Position numbers and translations under genes: made by a program
Part shown: positions 2,914 to 13,636 of the stretch, in pieces
How positions within the stretch are numbered: position 1 is the stretch's first letter
How the letters are laid out: the number at the start of each line of letters is the position of its first letter
NCBI GenBank assembly: GCA_021163155.1
Contig: JAGGXI010000082.1
Coordinates: 1 to 29,142, forward strand
DNA from: Candidatus Aerophobota bacterium
Lineage (GTDB): Bacteria > Aerophobota > Aerophobia > Aerophobales > JAGGXI01
Reading direction: 5' to 3'
DNA: 29,142 nt
The notes under the pieces: generated by a model
The model's database searches: none
What the model was told of the DNA's origin: nothing
What the model saw: the letters and a program-made list of their open reading frames with translations, nothing else

Positions 2914-3795
2914 ATGGAAAGAAAAAGAGAGACAAAAGTTGGAGAATTAATAAGGAGGCTTAAATACAATAAATCTGCAGTTTTTGGTCTCATTTTTGTT
3001 CTTATACTTATCTTATGTGCAATACTGGCAAACTATATTGCTCCGAATAATCCTACTCCTTCTCCTCCGGAATTATTCAAAAGCTTGAAACCTGGATTCT
3101 GGAGTAAACATGGAATAAAAGGTATGCCTCTGGGAACGGATGCTTTAGGAAGATGCGTTTTTAGCAGAATTCTCTATGGTGCCAGAGTAAGTTTAAGTGT
3201 GGGGTTCATTGCAGTTGGAATTGCTTTGCTTTTTGGTATAACTTTTGGAACAATAGCTGGTTATTATGGGGGATGGGTGGATACTATAATTATGAGAATA
3301 GTTGATATTATGTTTGCATTTCCAGCTTTACTTTTGGCAATAGTAATTGTGGCAGTTATAGGTCAGGGATTGGATAAAACTATGGTTGCATTGGGTATAG
3401 TTTATACCCCTCAAATGGCAAGGATTATAAGAAGTTCAGTGCTCTACATTAAAGAGATGGAATACATTGAGGTACAAAAAGCAATAGGTTCAAGCAATTG
3501 GAGAGTCATTTTTCGTCATGTTCTACCAAATAGTATAGCACCTGTCATTGTATATGGAACTTTAATGATGGCAACGGCTATTCTTGACTGTGCAGCACTT
3601 GGTTTCCTTGGTCTGGGTGCTCAACCTCCAACACCGGAATGGGGAGCAATGCTCTCCAAAAGCTATACATATATTGTGGGTGGAGCATGGTGGGCAGCGA
3701 CCTTTCCCGGGGTAGCTATCCTATTTGCAGTACTGGGGCTTAACCTGTTAGGCGATGGTTTAAGAGATATCTTAGATCCACGACTTAAGACGTAA
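2914..3795 (+). CDS. dppC: ABC transporter permease, DppC/OppC type
   Basis: This is the second permease (293 aa), pairing with the DppB-type subunit to form the channel. It has an N-terminal helix at about 22-42, the OppC-type periplasmic motif LGTDALGRCVFSRILYGARV at about 73-92, further helices, and the EAA loop EYIEVQKAIGSSNWRVIFRH at 183-202. The C-terminus NLLGDGLRDILDPRLK is typical. The ribosome site is only AGGA. A copy of repeat family A starts at the stop codon and separates this gene from the ATPase genes. Confidence 0.94.
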   Translation: MERKRETKVGELIRRLKYNKSAVFGLIFVLILILCAILANYIAPNNPTPSPPELFKSLKPGFWSKHGIKGMPLGTDALGRCVFSRILYGARVSLSVGFIAVGIALLFGITFGTIAGYYGGWVDTIIMRIVDIMFAFPALLLAIVIVAVIGQGLDKTMVALGIVYTPQMARIIRSSVLYIKEMEYIEVQKAIGSSNWRVIFRHVLPNSIAPVIVYGTLMMATAILDCAALGFLGLGAQPPTPEWGAMLSKSYTYIVGGAWWAATFPGVAILFAVLGLNLLGDGLRDILDPRLKT

Positions 3796-3934
3796 AAGCA
3801 GGATTAGAGGATTAGAGGGAAAAGAAAAACAGTGAGAAGCAAACTGGTAGCCGCAGGCTTTAGCCTGCGAAGAAGTGAGATGTGAGAGGAAAAGGCAGGA
3901 CTAAAAAGGCAGGATTAGAGGATTAGAGGGAAAT
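3796..3934 (+). repeat. Repeat family A, copy 1 (octamer tract, hairpin, octamer tract)
   Basis: An AGGATTAG-type octamer tract is followed by a spacer, a perfect hairpin CGCAGGCT-TT-AGCCTGCG at 3852-3869, a second spacer, and another octamer tract ending near 3930. The same order is found at 19390-19545 and 28804-28990. It fills the gap between permease and ATPase genes and could attenuate transcription. No open frame or transposase is seen. Confidence 0.85.
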
Positions 3935-3972
3935 AAGACTCCTTGTAAATGAGTGAATGGTAATGCATAAAG

Positions 3973-4971
3973 ATGATGAAAGAATTACTTAAAGTAAAAA
4001 ACCTAAAAACATACTTTTTTACCCATGAAGGAACGGTAAAAGCCGTAGATGGGATTAGTTTTAAGATTAATCAGGGAGAAACTCTGGGACTTGTTGGAGA
4101 GTCTGGATGTGGTAAAAGTGTTACCGCACTCTCCATTATGAGATTAATTCCCCATCCTCCTGGAAAGATTGTAAATGGGGAAATCTATTTTGAAGGCAAG
4201 AACCTCTTAGAATTAAATGGGAAAGAGATGAGAAAGATAAGAGGTAAAAAAATCTCTATGATTTTCCAGGAACCTATGACTTCATTAGACCCTGTATTTA
4301 CCATTGGTGATGAGATTATGGAATCCATTCAACTGCACCAAGGATTGAAAAAAGAAGAGGCAAGAGAAAAGGCGATAGAATCATTGAAAATCGTAGGGAT
4401 GCCAGATGTAAAAAAGAGAATAAATAATTATCCTCATGAGTTATCAGGAGGAATGAGACAAAGAGCAATGATTGCTATGGCATTATCCTGTAATCCTACT
4501 TTACTTATTGCTGATGAACCAACAACTGCATTGGATGTTACTATTCAAGCTCAGATTTTAAGATTAATCAATGAATTAAAGGAGAAATTTGGTGCTTCTG
4601 TGATGTTGATAACTCATGACCTTGGGGTAATTGCTGAAATGTGTGATTATGTTGCTGTGATGTATGCAGGACATATCGTAGAGTATACAGATGTAGATAC
4701 GCTCTTCCGCAACCCGCTTCATCCATATACAAAAGGATTAAATAAATCGATGCCAAGGCTTGATGTAGAAGCTAAACGTCTTGATACAATTAAGGGGTTG
4801 GTCCCCAATCTCCTTGATGTTCCTTCAGGATGTCCATTTCATCCAAGATGCGATTTTTGTTTTGAGAAATGCATTAAAGAGATGCCTGAATTAGTAGAAG
4901 CAGAAGACCATCATTTAGTAAAATGTCATTTAGTTAAAGGGGAGATTTCTGAAAAAGTCAGAAATCTCTGA
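3973..4971 (+). CDS. dppD: ABC transporter ATP-binding protein, DppD/OppD type
   Basis: This is one of two cytoplasmic ATPases powering the importer (332 aa). It has Walker A GESGCGKS at 42-49, Q-loop Gln99, signature LSGG at 157-160, Walker B LLIADEP at 177-183 and H-loop His215. The C-terminal oligopeptide-transporter extension holds Cys287, Cys293, Cys296, Cys300 and Cys318; in family members with known structure, cysteines here can bind an iron-sulfur cluster. ATG codons at 3973 and 3976 are both possible starts and neither has a strong ribosome site. The last ten codons (GEISEKVRNL) and the stop lie inside repeat family B, whose first hairpin is entirely coding here. Confidence 0.94.
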   Translation: MMKELLKVKNLKTYFFTHEGTVKAVDGISFKINQGETLGLVGESGCGKSVTALSIMRLIPHPPGKIVNGEIYFEGKNLLELNGKEMRKIRGKKISMIFQEPMTSLDPVFTIGDEIMESIQLHQGLKKEEAREKAIESLKIVGMPDVKKRINNYPHELSGGMRQRAMIAMALSCNPTLLIADEPTTALDVTIQAQILRLINELKEKFGASVMLITHDLGVIAEMCDYVAVMYAGHIVEYTDVDTLFRNPLHPYTKGLNKSMPRLDVEAKRLDTIKGLVPNLLDVPSGCPFHPRCDFCFEKCIKEMPELVEAEDHHLVKCHLVKGEISEKVRNL

Positions 4972-5036
4972 TTTCGCAGATAAAAGTTTAGATTACACAG
5001 ATTTGAGACCTCTAGAGGTTTTTCAAAGGTCTCAAA
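4942..5036 (+). repeat. Repeat family B, copy 1 (two hairpins)
   Basis: Hairpin 1 pairs GAGATTTCTGA (4942-4952) with TCAGAAATCTC (4958-4968). A GATTACACAGATT word follows, then hairpin 2 pairs TTTGAGACCT (5002-5011) with AGGTCTCAAA (5027-5036) across a loop containing TCTAGAGG. Related copies are at 6010-6056, 26495-26580 and 27829-27915. It overlaps the 3' end of the DppD gene and ends 13 bases before the DppF start, so hairpin 2 may affect translation of DppF. Confidence 0.85.
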
Positions 5037-5049
5037 GGGAATAAATGGG

Positions 5050-6009
5050 ATGGAGAAATTGATAGAAGTTAAAAATCTAAAGAAATGGTTCTGGACAGGT
5101 GGGGCATTTGCTGGAAAGAAAGAGGCAGTTAGAGCTGTGGATGATGTGAGTTTCTATATAAAAAAGAGAGAAGTTCTTGGTCTTGTGGGAGAGTCTGGAT
5201 GTGGAAAAACGACTTGCGGAAAAGTAATTTTAAGAATATTAGACCCTACGAGCGGTAGTATTTATTTTGATAGTCATAACATAACTCATTTAAGAAGAAG
5301 GGAAATGATAAAATTTAGAAGAAAAATGATGATTATCTACCAGGACCCTTTTGGTTCCCTTGACCCAAGAATGACTATAGGAGCAGCTATCGCTGAACCA
5401 ATGGAAGTACACAATATTATCTCAGGAAAGAAAAAAGAAGACAAAATAATAGAAATTATGAGAAAAGTGGGCCTTACTTCAGACCAAATAAATAGATACC
5501 CTCATGAATTCAGCGGTGGCCAAAGACAAAGAATAGGCATTGCAAGAGCTTTAGCAACAAATCCAGAATTCATAGTTGCAGATGAACCCGTCTCAGCTCT
5601 GGATGTTTCCATCCAGGCTCAGATCATCAATCTGTTGCAAGATTTACAGAGAGAATTCGGACTCACCCTTTTATTTATAGCTCATGATTTAAGTGTAGTA
5701 AAACATATAAGTGATAGAGTAGCCGTAATGTATTTAGGCAAAATTGTTGAGATGACTTCTAAGAAAGAATTATTCAATAACCCAAGGCATCCTTATACTA
5801 AAGCATTGCTTTCTGCAATACCCATTCCTAATCCAGGGCTCAGAAAAAAAGGAACTATTTTAATGGGGGATGTTCCCAGTCCTATAAATCCTCCTTCTGG
5901 ATGCAGATTCCACACAAGATGTTCTTATACTAAGGCTATATGTAAAGAAAAAGAGCCAGAACTAATTAATTCAGGAAATGATCATTATGTAGCCTGTCAT
6001 CTATTTTGA
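5050..6009 (+). CDS. dppF: ABC transporter ATP-binding protein, DppF/OppF type
   Basis: This is the second ATPase (319 aa), expected to form a heterodimer with the DppD-type protein. It has Walker A GESGCGKT at 47-54, Q-loop Gln98, signature FSGGQ at 154-158, Walker B FIVADEP at 174-180 and H-loop His212. The C-terminal extension has Cys285, Cys291, Cys298 and Cys316 in the family pattern GCRFHTRC. An AAAGGGA ribosome site, formed at the edge of repeat family B, lies 9 bases before the ATG. It is the last gene of the importer operon. Confidence 0.95.
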   Translation: MEKLIEVKNLKKWFWTGGAFAGKKEAVRAVDDVSFYIKKREVLGLVGESGCGKTTCGKVILRILDPTSGSIYFDSHNITHLRRREMIKFRRKMMIIYQDPFGSLDPRMTIGAAIAEPMEVHNIISGKKKEDKIIEIMRKVGLTSDQINRYPHEFSGGQRQRIGIARALATNPEFIVADEPVSALDVSIQAQIINLLQDLQREFGLTLLFIAHDLSVVKHISDRVAVMYLGKIVEMTSKKELFNNPRHPYTKALLSAIPIPNPGLRKKGTILMGDVPSPINPPSGCRFHTRCSYTKAICKEKEPELINSGNDHYVACHLF

Positions 6010-11235: not shown

Positions 11236-11478
11236 TTAACTTTTTGTATATTGTTTGATTCTCTCTTTAATCCAATTCCAATCCGGGTTTCCATGATTGA
11301 AAAAAGAGTTAAAATTATCCTTAAGCCACTCATAGTAGTCGTTCTCTGTATATTTACAGAAAGTCTCTACAAGAATATGTCCTGGAATGTCTTTAGGTGT
11401 TTTTATGCTCATCTCTTCAAATTCTTCATCTAAATATTCTTTTATAACTTTTTTATCAAGCATTTTGTGTTTTATCAT
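11236..11478 (-). CDS. Small acidic protein at the end of the methylase/HNH operon, unknown
   Basis: This is an 80-residue protein, rich in Glu, Asp and aromatic residues, with no membrane segment. Notable is the C-terminal GNPDWNWIKERIKQYTK. AAAGGA lies close to the ATG, and the start follows the HNH gene stop by 6 bases, so it is probably part of that operon. I do not recognise the family. Acid-rich small partners can act as inhibitors of nucleases, but nothing here proves that. Confidence 0.6.
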   Translation of the reverse strand: MIKHKMLDKKVIKEYLDEEFEEMSIKTPKDIPGHILVETFCKYTENDYYEWLKDNFNSFFNHGNPDWNWIKERIKQYTKS

Positions 11479-11484
11479 TTTCCT

Positions 11485-12075
11485 TTATTTATTATTAGGC
11501 CGCTGTATATGACTATTGAGATTATATTTTTCATACACATCAAAAATCTCTTTACAGAATTTAACCATTTTTTTGTCACTTTTCCTTACTGCCTCTTCAT
11601 ATAATCTTACAAGGAGCCTTTTGCCAAATTCTGTCTGTGAATATCTCTTTTTAAGAAGATTGTGCTCTGAGCACAAAGTCTGCCCATTATCAACTGTATT
11701 TGCTCCTCCTTTATCTAATGGTATTCTGTGGTCAGCATGGATTTCAACCCCATCTTTTCTTCCCTTACCACAAACAACACATTTATATCCGTCTCTTTTG
11801 AAAATTGCTTTTTTGACTTTAGAGGAAAATTCGTATAGCTCTCTATTCTGGATAAGATCAGGGTCATATCTATAAATACCTTTTCTTACTTTTATTAATA
11901 TACCCTCTTGGTAAAATTTACGAATTTGACGCCAAGGGTCACGTGGTTTTCTACCATAGAGCTTAAGGTATTGTTTCTCTACCCAATCGATAACTGGTCC
12001 ATGCTTTAAGTCTTCTTTGGGATGCATTCGGAAATATTCCATTATCAAATCAGCAATAGTTTTCCTTACTTTCAC
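11485..12075 (-). CDS. HNH endonuclease with an N-terminal winged-helix-like region; probable restriction enzyme
   Basis: This is a 196-residue nuclease. Residues 1-75 look like a winged helix (HGPVIDWVEKQYLKLYG, then PWRQIRKFYQEGILIKV and a KGIYRYDP wing). The HNH domain covers about 88-142: CVVCGKG (Cys99, Cys102), EIHADHRIPLDKGG with Asp115-His116, Asn130 in TVDNGQ, and LCSEHN with Cys135 and His138. Catalytic and zinc residues are all present, so it should be active. It starts 3 bases after the methyltransferase stop, the classic layout of a Type II restriction-modification pair. The pair could instead be a solitary methylase with an unrelated nuclease, but the spacing argues against that. 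Confidence 0.85.
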   Translation of the reverse strand: MKVRKTIADLIMEYFRMHPKEDLKHGPVIDWVEKQYLKLYGRKPRDPWRQIRKFYQEGILIKVRKGIYRYDPDLIQNRELYEFSSKVKKAIFKRDGYKCVVCGKGRKDGVEIHADHRIPLDKGGANTVDNGQTLCSEHNLLKKRYSQTEFGKRLLVRLYEEAVRKSDKKMVKFCKEIFDVYEKYNLNSHIQRPNNK

Positions 12076-12078
12076 TAT

Positions 12079-12882
12079 CTATTTCCTTCCTTGAAACACA
12101 TTCAGCATAAGTTGATTAATTTCAACCTCAGTTATTAATCTTTGTTTCGCAATTTCACAATAATTTCTATCGATCTCAACTCCTATTCCTTTTCTCTTTG
12201 TCAAAGCACAGGCAATTAAACTACTTCCACTACCTAAAAAGGGGTCGAGAATTGTATCGTCTACAAAAGTAAATAACTTTATGCATCTTCTCGGAAGTTC
12301 GACTGGAAATGGCGTAGGATGTCCTACACGTTTTTTACTTTCACCCATAAAATTCCAAACACCGTTTGTCCATTCCATAAATTCCTTCTTAGTAATATCC
12401 GATCTTCTACTTCCGCTTAACTTCTTCCATTGTTTTTTATATAGGACAACAATCATCTCCACAGGAGCGATGACATAAGGAGCTGAAGCGCTGAGCCATG
12501 AACCCCATGCAGTCCGTCTTGAGATATTTTGTTCATTCCAGACAATGGTAGAATGATATTTCCATCCAACCTCTTTAGCAATTGTAATGATATCAGCATA
12601 GACGCTTTGCTGCCCCCCCTTATTCTTATCTAAAGGTATATTTAAGCAAAATCTCCCGTCATCTTTTATTAATTCATAGGCTTTCTCAAGCCATTTCTTT
12701 GTAAATTTAAGATATACATTATAGGATAGCTTATCATCGTAAGAGTTGTATTTAATATCTATGTTGTAAGGGGGAGATGTTACAATTAAATCTACCATTC
12801 CTTCTTGGACGTACTTAGTAGATAAAAAGTCATCATTATATATTTTTATGCCTTTCACCTGAAAGTAAAGTTTTCTATTCAT
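12079..12882 (-). CDS. DNA methyltransferase, beta class (N4-cytosine or N6-adenine)
   Basis: This is a 267-residue enzyme with motif IV TSPPYN at residues 35-40 near the N-terminus, HPTPFP at 188-193, and the AdoMet-binding motif DPFLGSGSS at 213-221, followed by GVEIDRNYC. Motif IV before motif I makes it beta class. SPPY is typical of N4-cytosine methylases but also occurs in N6-adenine ones, so the modified base is undecided. AAAAAAGGA lies 7 bases before the ATG, and this ATG overlaps the stop of a 49-codon ORF (ATGA). It should protect host DNA against the HNH enzyme downstream. The recognition site cannot be inferred. Confidence 0.92.
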   Translation of the reverse strand: MNRKLYFQVKGIKIYNDDFLSTKYVQEGMVDLIVTSPPYNIDIKYNSYDDKLSYNVYLKFTKKWLEKAYELIKDDGRFCLNIPLDKNKGGQQSVYADIITIAKEVGWKYHSTIVWNEQNISRRTAWGSWLSASAPYVIAPVEMIVVLYKKQWKKLSGSRRSDITKKEFMEWTNGVWNFMGESKKRVGHPTPFPVELPRRCIKLFTFVDDTILDPFLGSGSSLIACALTKRKGIGVEIDRNYCEIAKQRLITEVEINQLMLNVFQGRK

Positions 12883-13028
12883 TTATATTCCTTTTTTAAA
12901 GGCACGGTCTTTTTCTCCTGAAGGTCATTTAAGGCTTCTTGTTCCATCTTTTGCAAAGCTTTACCCCAAGCAGGCTTGAGCTCGAAGAAAAGAGCTTCTC
13001 TCTCATATTCTCGTCTCAACTCACTCAC
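12879..13028 (-). CDS. 49-codon ORF starting in a GTGA tandem repeat, coupled to the methyltransferase
   Basis: A GTG at 13028 opens a frame of 49 charged residues (contains REYEREALFFELKP, then AWGKALQKMEQEALNDLQ), predicted mostly helical. It ends at TGA 12881-12879, overlapping the methylase ATG in an ATGA. The GTG lies inside the (GTGA)5 repeat, 5 bases after the stop of the upstream gene, with no Shine-Dalgarno site of its own, so termination-reinitiation is the likely start mode. TTG at 13019 or ATG at 12947 are alternatives. No family is recognised. Position and the exact overlap favour a real gene, but it may also be a leader for the methylase. Confidence 0.5.
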   Translation of the reverse strand: MSELRREYEREALFFELKPAWGKALQKMEQEALNDLQEKKTVPLKKEYK

Positions 13029-13040
13029 TCACTCACTCAC
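13021..13040. repeat. (TCAC)5 / (GTGA)5 tetranucleotide tandem repeat
   Basis: Five perfect TCAC units on the plus strand (GTGA on the coding minus strand), flanked by near-units TTAC and TCAAC. It covers the stop of the 179-residue ORF (TGA 13035-13033) and the GTG of the 49-codon ORF. Confidence 0.95.
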
Positions 13041-13572
13041 TTACTTCATCCTTAGGCAAATAGCCGGGACAGCTGGTGATTATCTCTTTTCTTTTACGTA
13101 CTCTCTTCTCCCTTTCACACTCACCTGATAGCCAGCAATTCGCACACAATCCAACCTCCTTACGAATTCTTGATACTTTTTTAGTAATCTTCGGCTCTTT
13201 TTCTATACCTACCACCTCTTCCTTTACTCTTTTTTTCTCTTTTGTAGGGCCCAAACCCTGTTCAGTGGCAAACTCTATCTCTTTTTCTTTAGCTTCTTCT
13301 CGCTGTTTATAAGTACCTATCTTATTATCCATACTTCTCATCTTTTCATCCAATAAATCATAGATATCTATCAATCTATTATCCACCGATTGCAAGAGTT
13401 TTGTAAAATAGCCGAGAGCATAATAGAGAACTCCAATTATTACAGAAGCGATAATAATAGCAAATCCATATATAGTAGCATTTCCACCGTATTTACCGGT
13501 AATCAAAAATATTCCTCCACCTACTCCAAATATAATAATAAACGGGCCAACTATTCTTAAAAATATATTCAT
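13033..13572 (-). CDS. Two-helix membrane protein with coiled coil and C-terminal four-cysteine motif
   Basis: This is a 179-residue protein heading the methylase operon. Membrane helices lie at about 5-27 and 32-55 and a short amphipathic coiled coil at 56-90 (LLQSVDNRLIDIYDLLDEKM). A highly charged linker follows, then Cys143-x2-Cys146-x5-Cys152-x15-Cys168-Pro, which could bind zinc or iron-sulfur on the cytoplasmic side. The ribosome site AAGGAGGAGGT is excellent. The next ORF starts 5 bases after the stop and the whole group is transcribed from a near-consensus promoter. I do not recognise the family. It is unlike any standard restriction-modification subunit. Confidence 0.75.
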   Translation of the reverse strand: MNIFLRIVGPFIIIFGVGGGIFLITGKYGGNATIYGFAIIIASVIIGVLYYALGYFTKLLQSVDNRLIDIYDLLDEKMRSMDNKIGTYKQREEAKEKEIEFATEQGLGPTKEKKRVKEEVVGIEKEPKITKKVSRIRKEVGLCANCWLSGECEREKRVRKRKEIITSCPGYLPKDEVSE

Positions 13573-13608: not shown

Positions 13609-13636
13609 ATTATAATCGGAAGCACCGGGATGTCAA
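13609..13636 (-). promoter_or_regulatory. Near-consensus sigma-70 promoter of the methylase/HNH operon
   Basis: On the minus strand a perfect TTGACA (13636-13631) and a perfect TATAAT (13614-13609) are separated by 16 bases. Transcription would begin near 13602, about 30 bases before the ATG at 13572, with AAGGAGGAGGT between. One base short of the ideal spacing is the only flaw. Confidence 0.85.

Follow-up and report, generated by a model that had tools for sequence, protein, structure and literature searches.

A five-gene run in a draft bacterial genome very probably contains a mobile two-gene restriction-modification cassette

Five closely packed open reading frames (ORFs) in a bacterial draft genome of 1.83 Mb (contig C97) include a DNA methylase and an HNH nuclease, and raise the question of whether all five form one defence system or whether a smaller system lies there among unrelated neighbors. 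The ORFs occupy positions 11236-13572 of the 29,142-nucleotide stretch of DNA that was analyzed (the window), and all are encoded on the minus strand. We consider that the locus very probably holds a horizontally acquired, two-gene Type II restriction-modification cassette, formed by the methylase and by an HNH protein whose restriction activity we infer. An original prediction from this DNA had described a near-consensus promoter and five ORFs separated by gaps of 4, -4, 3 and 6 bases. Coordinates and gaps were re-derived from the sequence and agreed with that description, and the promoter, a sigma-70-like element at 13609-13636 on the minus strand, upstream of the gene for a 179-aa protein, matches the consensus at 12 of 12 positions (TTGACA-16-TATAAT, read from 13636 to 13609). 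The tight spacing suggests that all five genes are co-transcribed at this locus, although such spacing can also make passenger genes resemble parts of a system. Three of the ORFs, encoding the methylase, the HNH protein and a protein of 80 aa, are real genes with homologs that are 45-80% identical.

The methylase (267 aa; 12079-12882, minus strand) is the first gene of a conserved pair and is predicted to be a beta-class, site-specific DNA methyltransferase, with matches to Pfam N6_N4_Mtase (8e-50) and to the PADLOC Type II methyltransferase model PDLC03353 (1e-94). Motif IV (TSPPYN) precedes motif I (DPFLGSG), which is the beta-class order, and an alignment of 17 methylase sequences retains TSPPYN and DPFxGSG throughout. 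TSPPY is commoner in N4-cytosine methylases, a hint, though no proof, that this is the base modified. Methylase homologs with 58-81% identity are present in all intact loci. Two methylases of the same family carry an extra N-terminal helix-turn-helix domain of the MerR/HTH_17 type (L005, 3917-4987; L092, 4121-5188), and an orphan copy that is 69% identical (L088, 2717-3520) is followed by an NYN-like gene that replaces the HNH gene.

The second gene of the pair (11485-12075, minus strand, GTG start) encodes an HNH endonuclease of 196 aa (Pfam HNH, 2.7e-8), which is the candidate restriction enzyme. Residues C99, C102, D115-H116, N130, C135 and H138 are invariant among 15 HNH sequences. With these Pfam matches and conserved catalytic residues, the predicted core of a beta-class methylase and an HNH nuclease with intact motifs was upheld. 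The structure predicted for the HNH protein (pLDDT 84, pTM 0.44) has an N-terminal winged helix (residues ~1-72), an HNH fold (~82-147) and a helical C-terminus. In this model, the HNH fold resembles that of EcoKMcrA (Z 8.0, with 65 residues superimposed at 2.6 A), and the winged helix matches that of DpnI (Z 7.7). The winged-helix matches, DpnI's included, are of the strength seen for any common fold. The PADLOC Type II restriction enzyme model PDLC03478 matches the nuclease over the HNH region only (8.6e-8), while a distant HNH relative at L092 matches it over both the winged helix and the HNH domain (1.2e-9). The match of the nuclease to its PADLOC model is weak, so that the nuclease represents a separate subfamily.

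Type IIP systems with HNH (beta-beta-alpha-metal) nucleases are exemplified by KpnI, Hpy99I and PacI (PMC4081073). The present pair resembles these systems in having a separate HNH-class nuclease gene beside a methylase gene, with no helicase or translocase gene, but its nuclease differs in bearing an N-terminal winged helix and shows no sequence match to enzymes of the KpnI, Hpy99I or PacI type among solved structures. Neither an ATP-dependent translocase nor a specificity subunit was found among the five genes or as a conserved gene at the other pair loci.

The nuclease sequence, when used to scan genome contigs, hit 19 loci, and its search against 386 diverse genomes returned matches in 15, the source genome included. 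A Calditerrivibrio plasmid and one viral contig were added to the locus set; duplicates, edge-cut copies, decayed copies and the distant relatives at L021 and L022 were left out of the count of distinct loci. The methylase lies directly upstream of the HNH gene, on the same strand, in 25 of the 25 other distinct intact loci. Carriers include archaea, many bacterial lineages, the Calditerrivibrio plasmid and a phage contig, and the genes that flank the pair elsewhere are unrelated on both sides and mostly housekeeping. Pairwise distances for the methylase and the HNH protein are correlated (r = 0.77, 23 pairs; 0 of 5000 permutations as high), indicating that the two genes travel together. Relatives from the same order retain decayed pieces at most, namely a remnant of HNH in one (86 aa; G006) and of the methylase in another (46 aa; G007). 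Scattered hosts, unrelated neighbors, correlated distances and relatives with remnants only are, when taken together, what one sees with a mobile restriction-modification pair. The methylase/HNH system travels broadly, in bacterial and archaeal hosts as well as on a plasmid and a phage contig. The source-genome copy falls beside archaeal copies in the tree, with low support. In the four relatives where both flanking genes were found (G004, G011, G012 and G015), the two genes lie on different contigs, which kept an empty site from being shown.

The complete pair on the viral contig (L093, 3148-4570) is situated inside a phage head-gene module, with terminase- and portal-like genes before it and capsid-type genes after it. 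At two other loci, a further restriction nuclease adjoins the pair, BsaWI-like at L004 (5801-6538) and MspI-like at L021 (5587-6423).

In the two-gene reading, the cassette would have arrived in the genome by horizontal transfer. The methylase would then mark a short target sequence in host DNA, and the HNH protein would cleave the same sequence wherever it is unmarked, as in incoming phage or plasmid DNA, probably binding DNA via its N-terminal winged helix and cutting with its HNH domain. The two genes upstream, for a predicted membrane protein and a truncated antitoxin, would be passengers or upstream neighbors that lend a promoter at most, and the 80-aa gene would be an optional companion on some copies of the cassette, where its product may modulate the nuclease.

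The 80-aa protein (11236-11478, minus strand) is the sole real accessory candidate at the locus and, judging from where its homologs occur, appears to be a portable and optional companion. The homologs are ~75 aa in length and start at M6. They are encoded directly after the HNH gene in Kryptonium (L006), Hydrothermus (L010) and Thermokryptus (L015), as the sole copy in each genome. Strong matches were obtained in 5 of the 386 genomes, namely the source genome, G186, G266, G005 and G070. In G186 (L092), the gene follows the methylase, and a distantly related winged-helix HNH gene lies upstream. In G266 (L091), it is the last gene of an operon with overlapping genes, together with an 86-aa ORF and an HNH_2 nuclease gene whose product is recognized by a PADLOC HNH model named "Type II restriction enzyme". 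In G005 and G070 (L089 and L090), it comes after a related ORF of 83-85 aa, with no such nuclease alongside. Six of the eight loci thus place the 80-aa gene next to an HNH nuclease or methylase gene, and two place it next to neither. Since this placement exceeds chance, the unit may consist of three genes in some hosts.

In a three-gene system of this kind, the 80-aa protein would be a portable factor that regulates or inhibits HNH restriction nucleases; it might hold back cleavage while host DNA is still being methylated, much as control proteins act in other systems. Its recurrence directly after the HNH gene at the source locus and three others, its position after the methylase at L092, the overlapping operon at L091 and the scatter of its carriers over the tree of the pair all favor this alternative. 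Against it, the gene is missing from 22 of the 25 other pairs, the copies at L089 and L090 have no such nuclease beside them, and a fold search with the structure model of the 80-aa protein (four helices, pLDDT 83) returned no match at E <= 0.001. On balance, we regard a three-gene system as a tentative and rather unlikely alternative to the two-gene cassette. On the expected co-occurrence of the 80-aa family with the pair, the picture is mixed: the family accompanies 3 of the 25 other pairs, and L092 joins it to the methylase with a distant HNH gene, but at three further 80-aa loci, in three genomes, the pair is absent. The family was found in none of the phages, plasmids and viral contigs searched.

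Regulation of the nuclease is our leading guess at what the 80-aa protein might do, and such control would help to explain how new hosts survive the gain of a pair of this type. A broader proposal, likewise rather unlikely, is that the family, so far without a name, consists of small portable proteins that inhibit or activate HNH restriction nucleases, are common to unrelated HNH systems and are sometimes accompanied by a second small protein of ~85 aa. A second small family of 83-86 aa, with no Pfam match, precedes the 80-aa homologs at L089 (5642-6220), L090 (1390-1898) and L091 (5451-5939). At L092, the set of HNH, methylase and 80-aa genes (3124-5769) seems to split another DNA methylase gene, with a motif I piece and a motif IV piece on either side.

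Modification-dependent enzymes that join a winged helix to an HNH domain, with or without a PUA domain, have been described (wH-HNH and PUA-wH-HNH enzymes; HhiV4I and HtuIII; PMC11037411). The present nuclease is like these enzymes in this joining of domains but has no PUA domain, and it could be read as a Type IV-like, winged-helix/HNH nuclease with the methylase as a mere neighbor. The existence of wH-HNH Type IV enzymes and the structural matches to EcoKMcrA and, at the level of a generic fold, to DpnI are in keeping with that idea. However, the methylase adjoins the nuclease in every intact locus, and there the nuclease gene was never found standing alone, whereas no methylase adjoins 87% of the winged-helix fusion nucleases in a published survey (PMC11037411). 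A modification-dependent role is therefore very unlikely, and a methylase-paired restriction enzyme is the reading retained here.

The 49-aa ORF (12879-13028, minus strand, GTG start) is, as judged from its alignments, a 5'-truncated antitoxin remnant and a passenger at the locus, with 58-68% identity to the C-terminal portion of related antitoxins. An intact paralog on contig C98 of the same genome (L003) encodes an antitoxin of 62 aa, and the gene after it a ParE toxin of 96 aa (Pfam ParE-like_toxin, 4e-9), and a second related place, on contig C81 (L002), holds a damaged copy. The 49-aa ORF aligns to the C98 antitoxin from residue 17 onward only (58% identity) and thus corresponds to its C-terminal part, the N-terminal part being absent, as is the toxin gene; no convincing remnant of a ParE toxin was found in the window, including the region after the cassette. 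Its end overlaps the methylase start codon, and its own start codon lies inside a TGAG tetranucleotide repeat. This TGAG/CTCA repeat occupies 13013-13042, between the first two ORFs. Comparison with the paralogs gave a dN/dS of ~0.12-0.15, a value that reflects the history of the family and cannot date the truncation.

The first gene (13033-13572, minus strand) encodes the 179-aa protein, which had been described as having two membrane helices, a coiled coil and a four-Cys tail. The tail is confirmed as C-x2-C-x5-C-x15-C, and the remaining features are visible as hydrophobic and charged stretches. A search of 61 genomes, including those of the same order, found one relative, in the same-order genome G004, which matches in the tail only (61% over ~44 aa); there the tail is preceded, in the same reading frame, by the N-terminal domain of a resolvase and by a run of hydrophobic residues. 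G004 is without such a methylase or HNH nuclease, and the anticipated co-occurrence of the 179-aa family with the pair was seen nowhere else. A search of 386 genomes for the four-Cys tail gave no further convincing case; extra matches at E 0.001-0.01 were short and were judged to be due to chance. The gene may be a lineage-specific upstream neighbor or passenger that simply supplies the promoter. At L024 (1003-1623), a single reading frame joins the N-terminal domain of a serine resolvase to a hydrophobic segment and the four-Cys tail known from the 179-aa protein.

The original prediction had the membrane, 49-aa and 80-aa proteins sense, anchor or restrain the nuclease within one unusual defence system, of which the methylase/HNH core stands and the rest, for want of co-occurrence, mostly does not: one strong promoter, nearly gapless genes and the recurrence of the 80-aa gene beside HNH genes speak for a five-gene system, but neither the 179-aa nor the 49-aa gene is present with the pair in any of the 25 other distinct loci, the 49-aa ORF is a piece of an antitoxin gene and the tail homolog of the 179-aa protein occurs in a genome without the pair, so that this explanation is very unlikely.

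A target for the two-gene cassette was sought as depletion of palindromes in five host samples, which revealed no convincing candidate. CCGG, hinted at by the BsaWI-like and MspI-like neighbors, which belong to CCGG-recognizing families, was rejected, since its observed/expected ratio (O/E) in the source host is 1.01 and it is not depleted. GAGCTC was lowest among the 6-mers over the five hosts, although its values (0.55-0.80 vs 0.85 in same-order controls) are too weak to support a claim. In the genome sample of the source host (L095-L114), GATC (O/E 0.35), GTAC (0.45) and CTAG (0.14) are strongly depleted.
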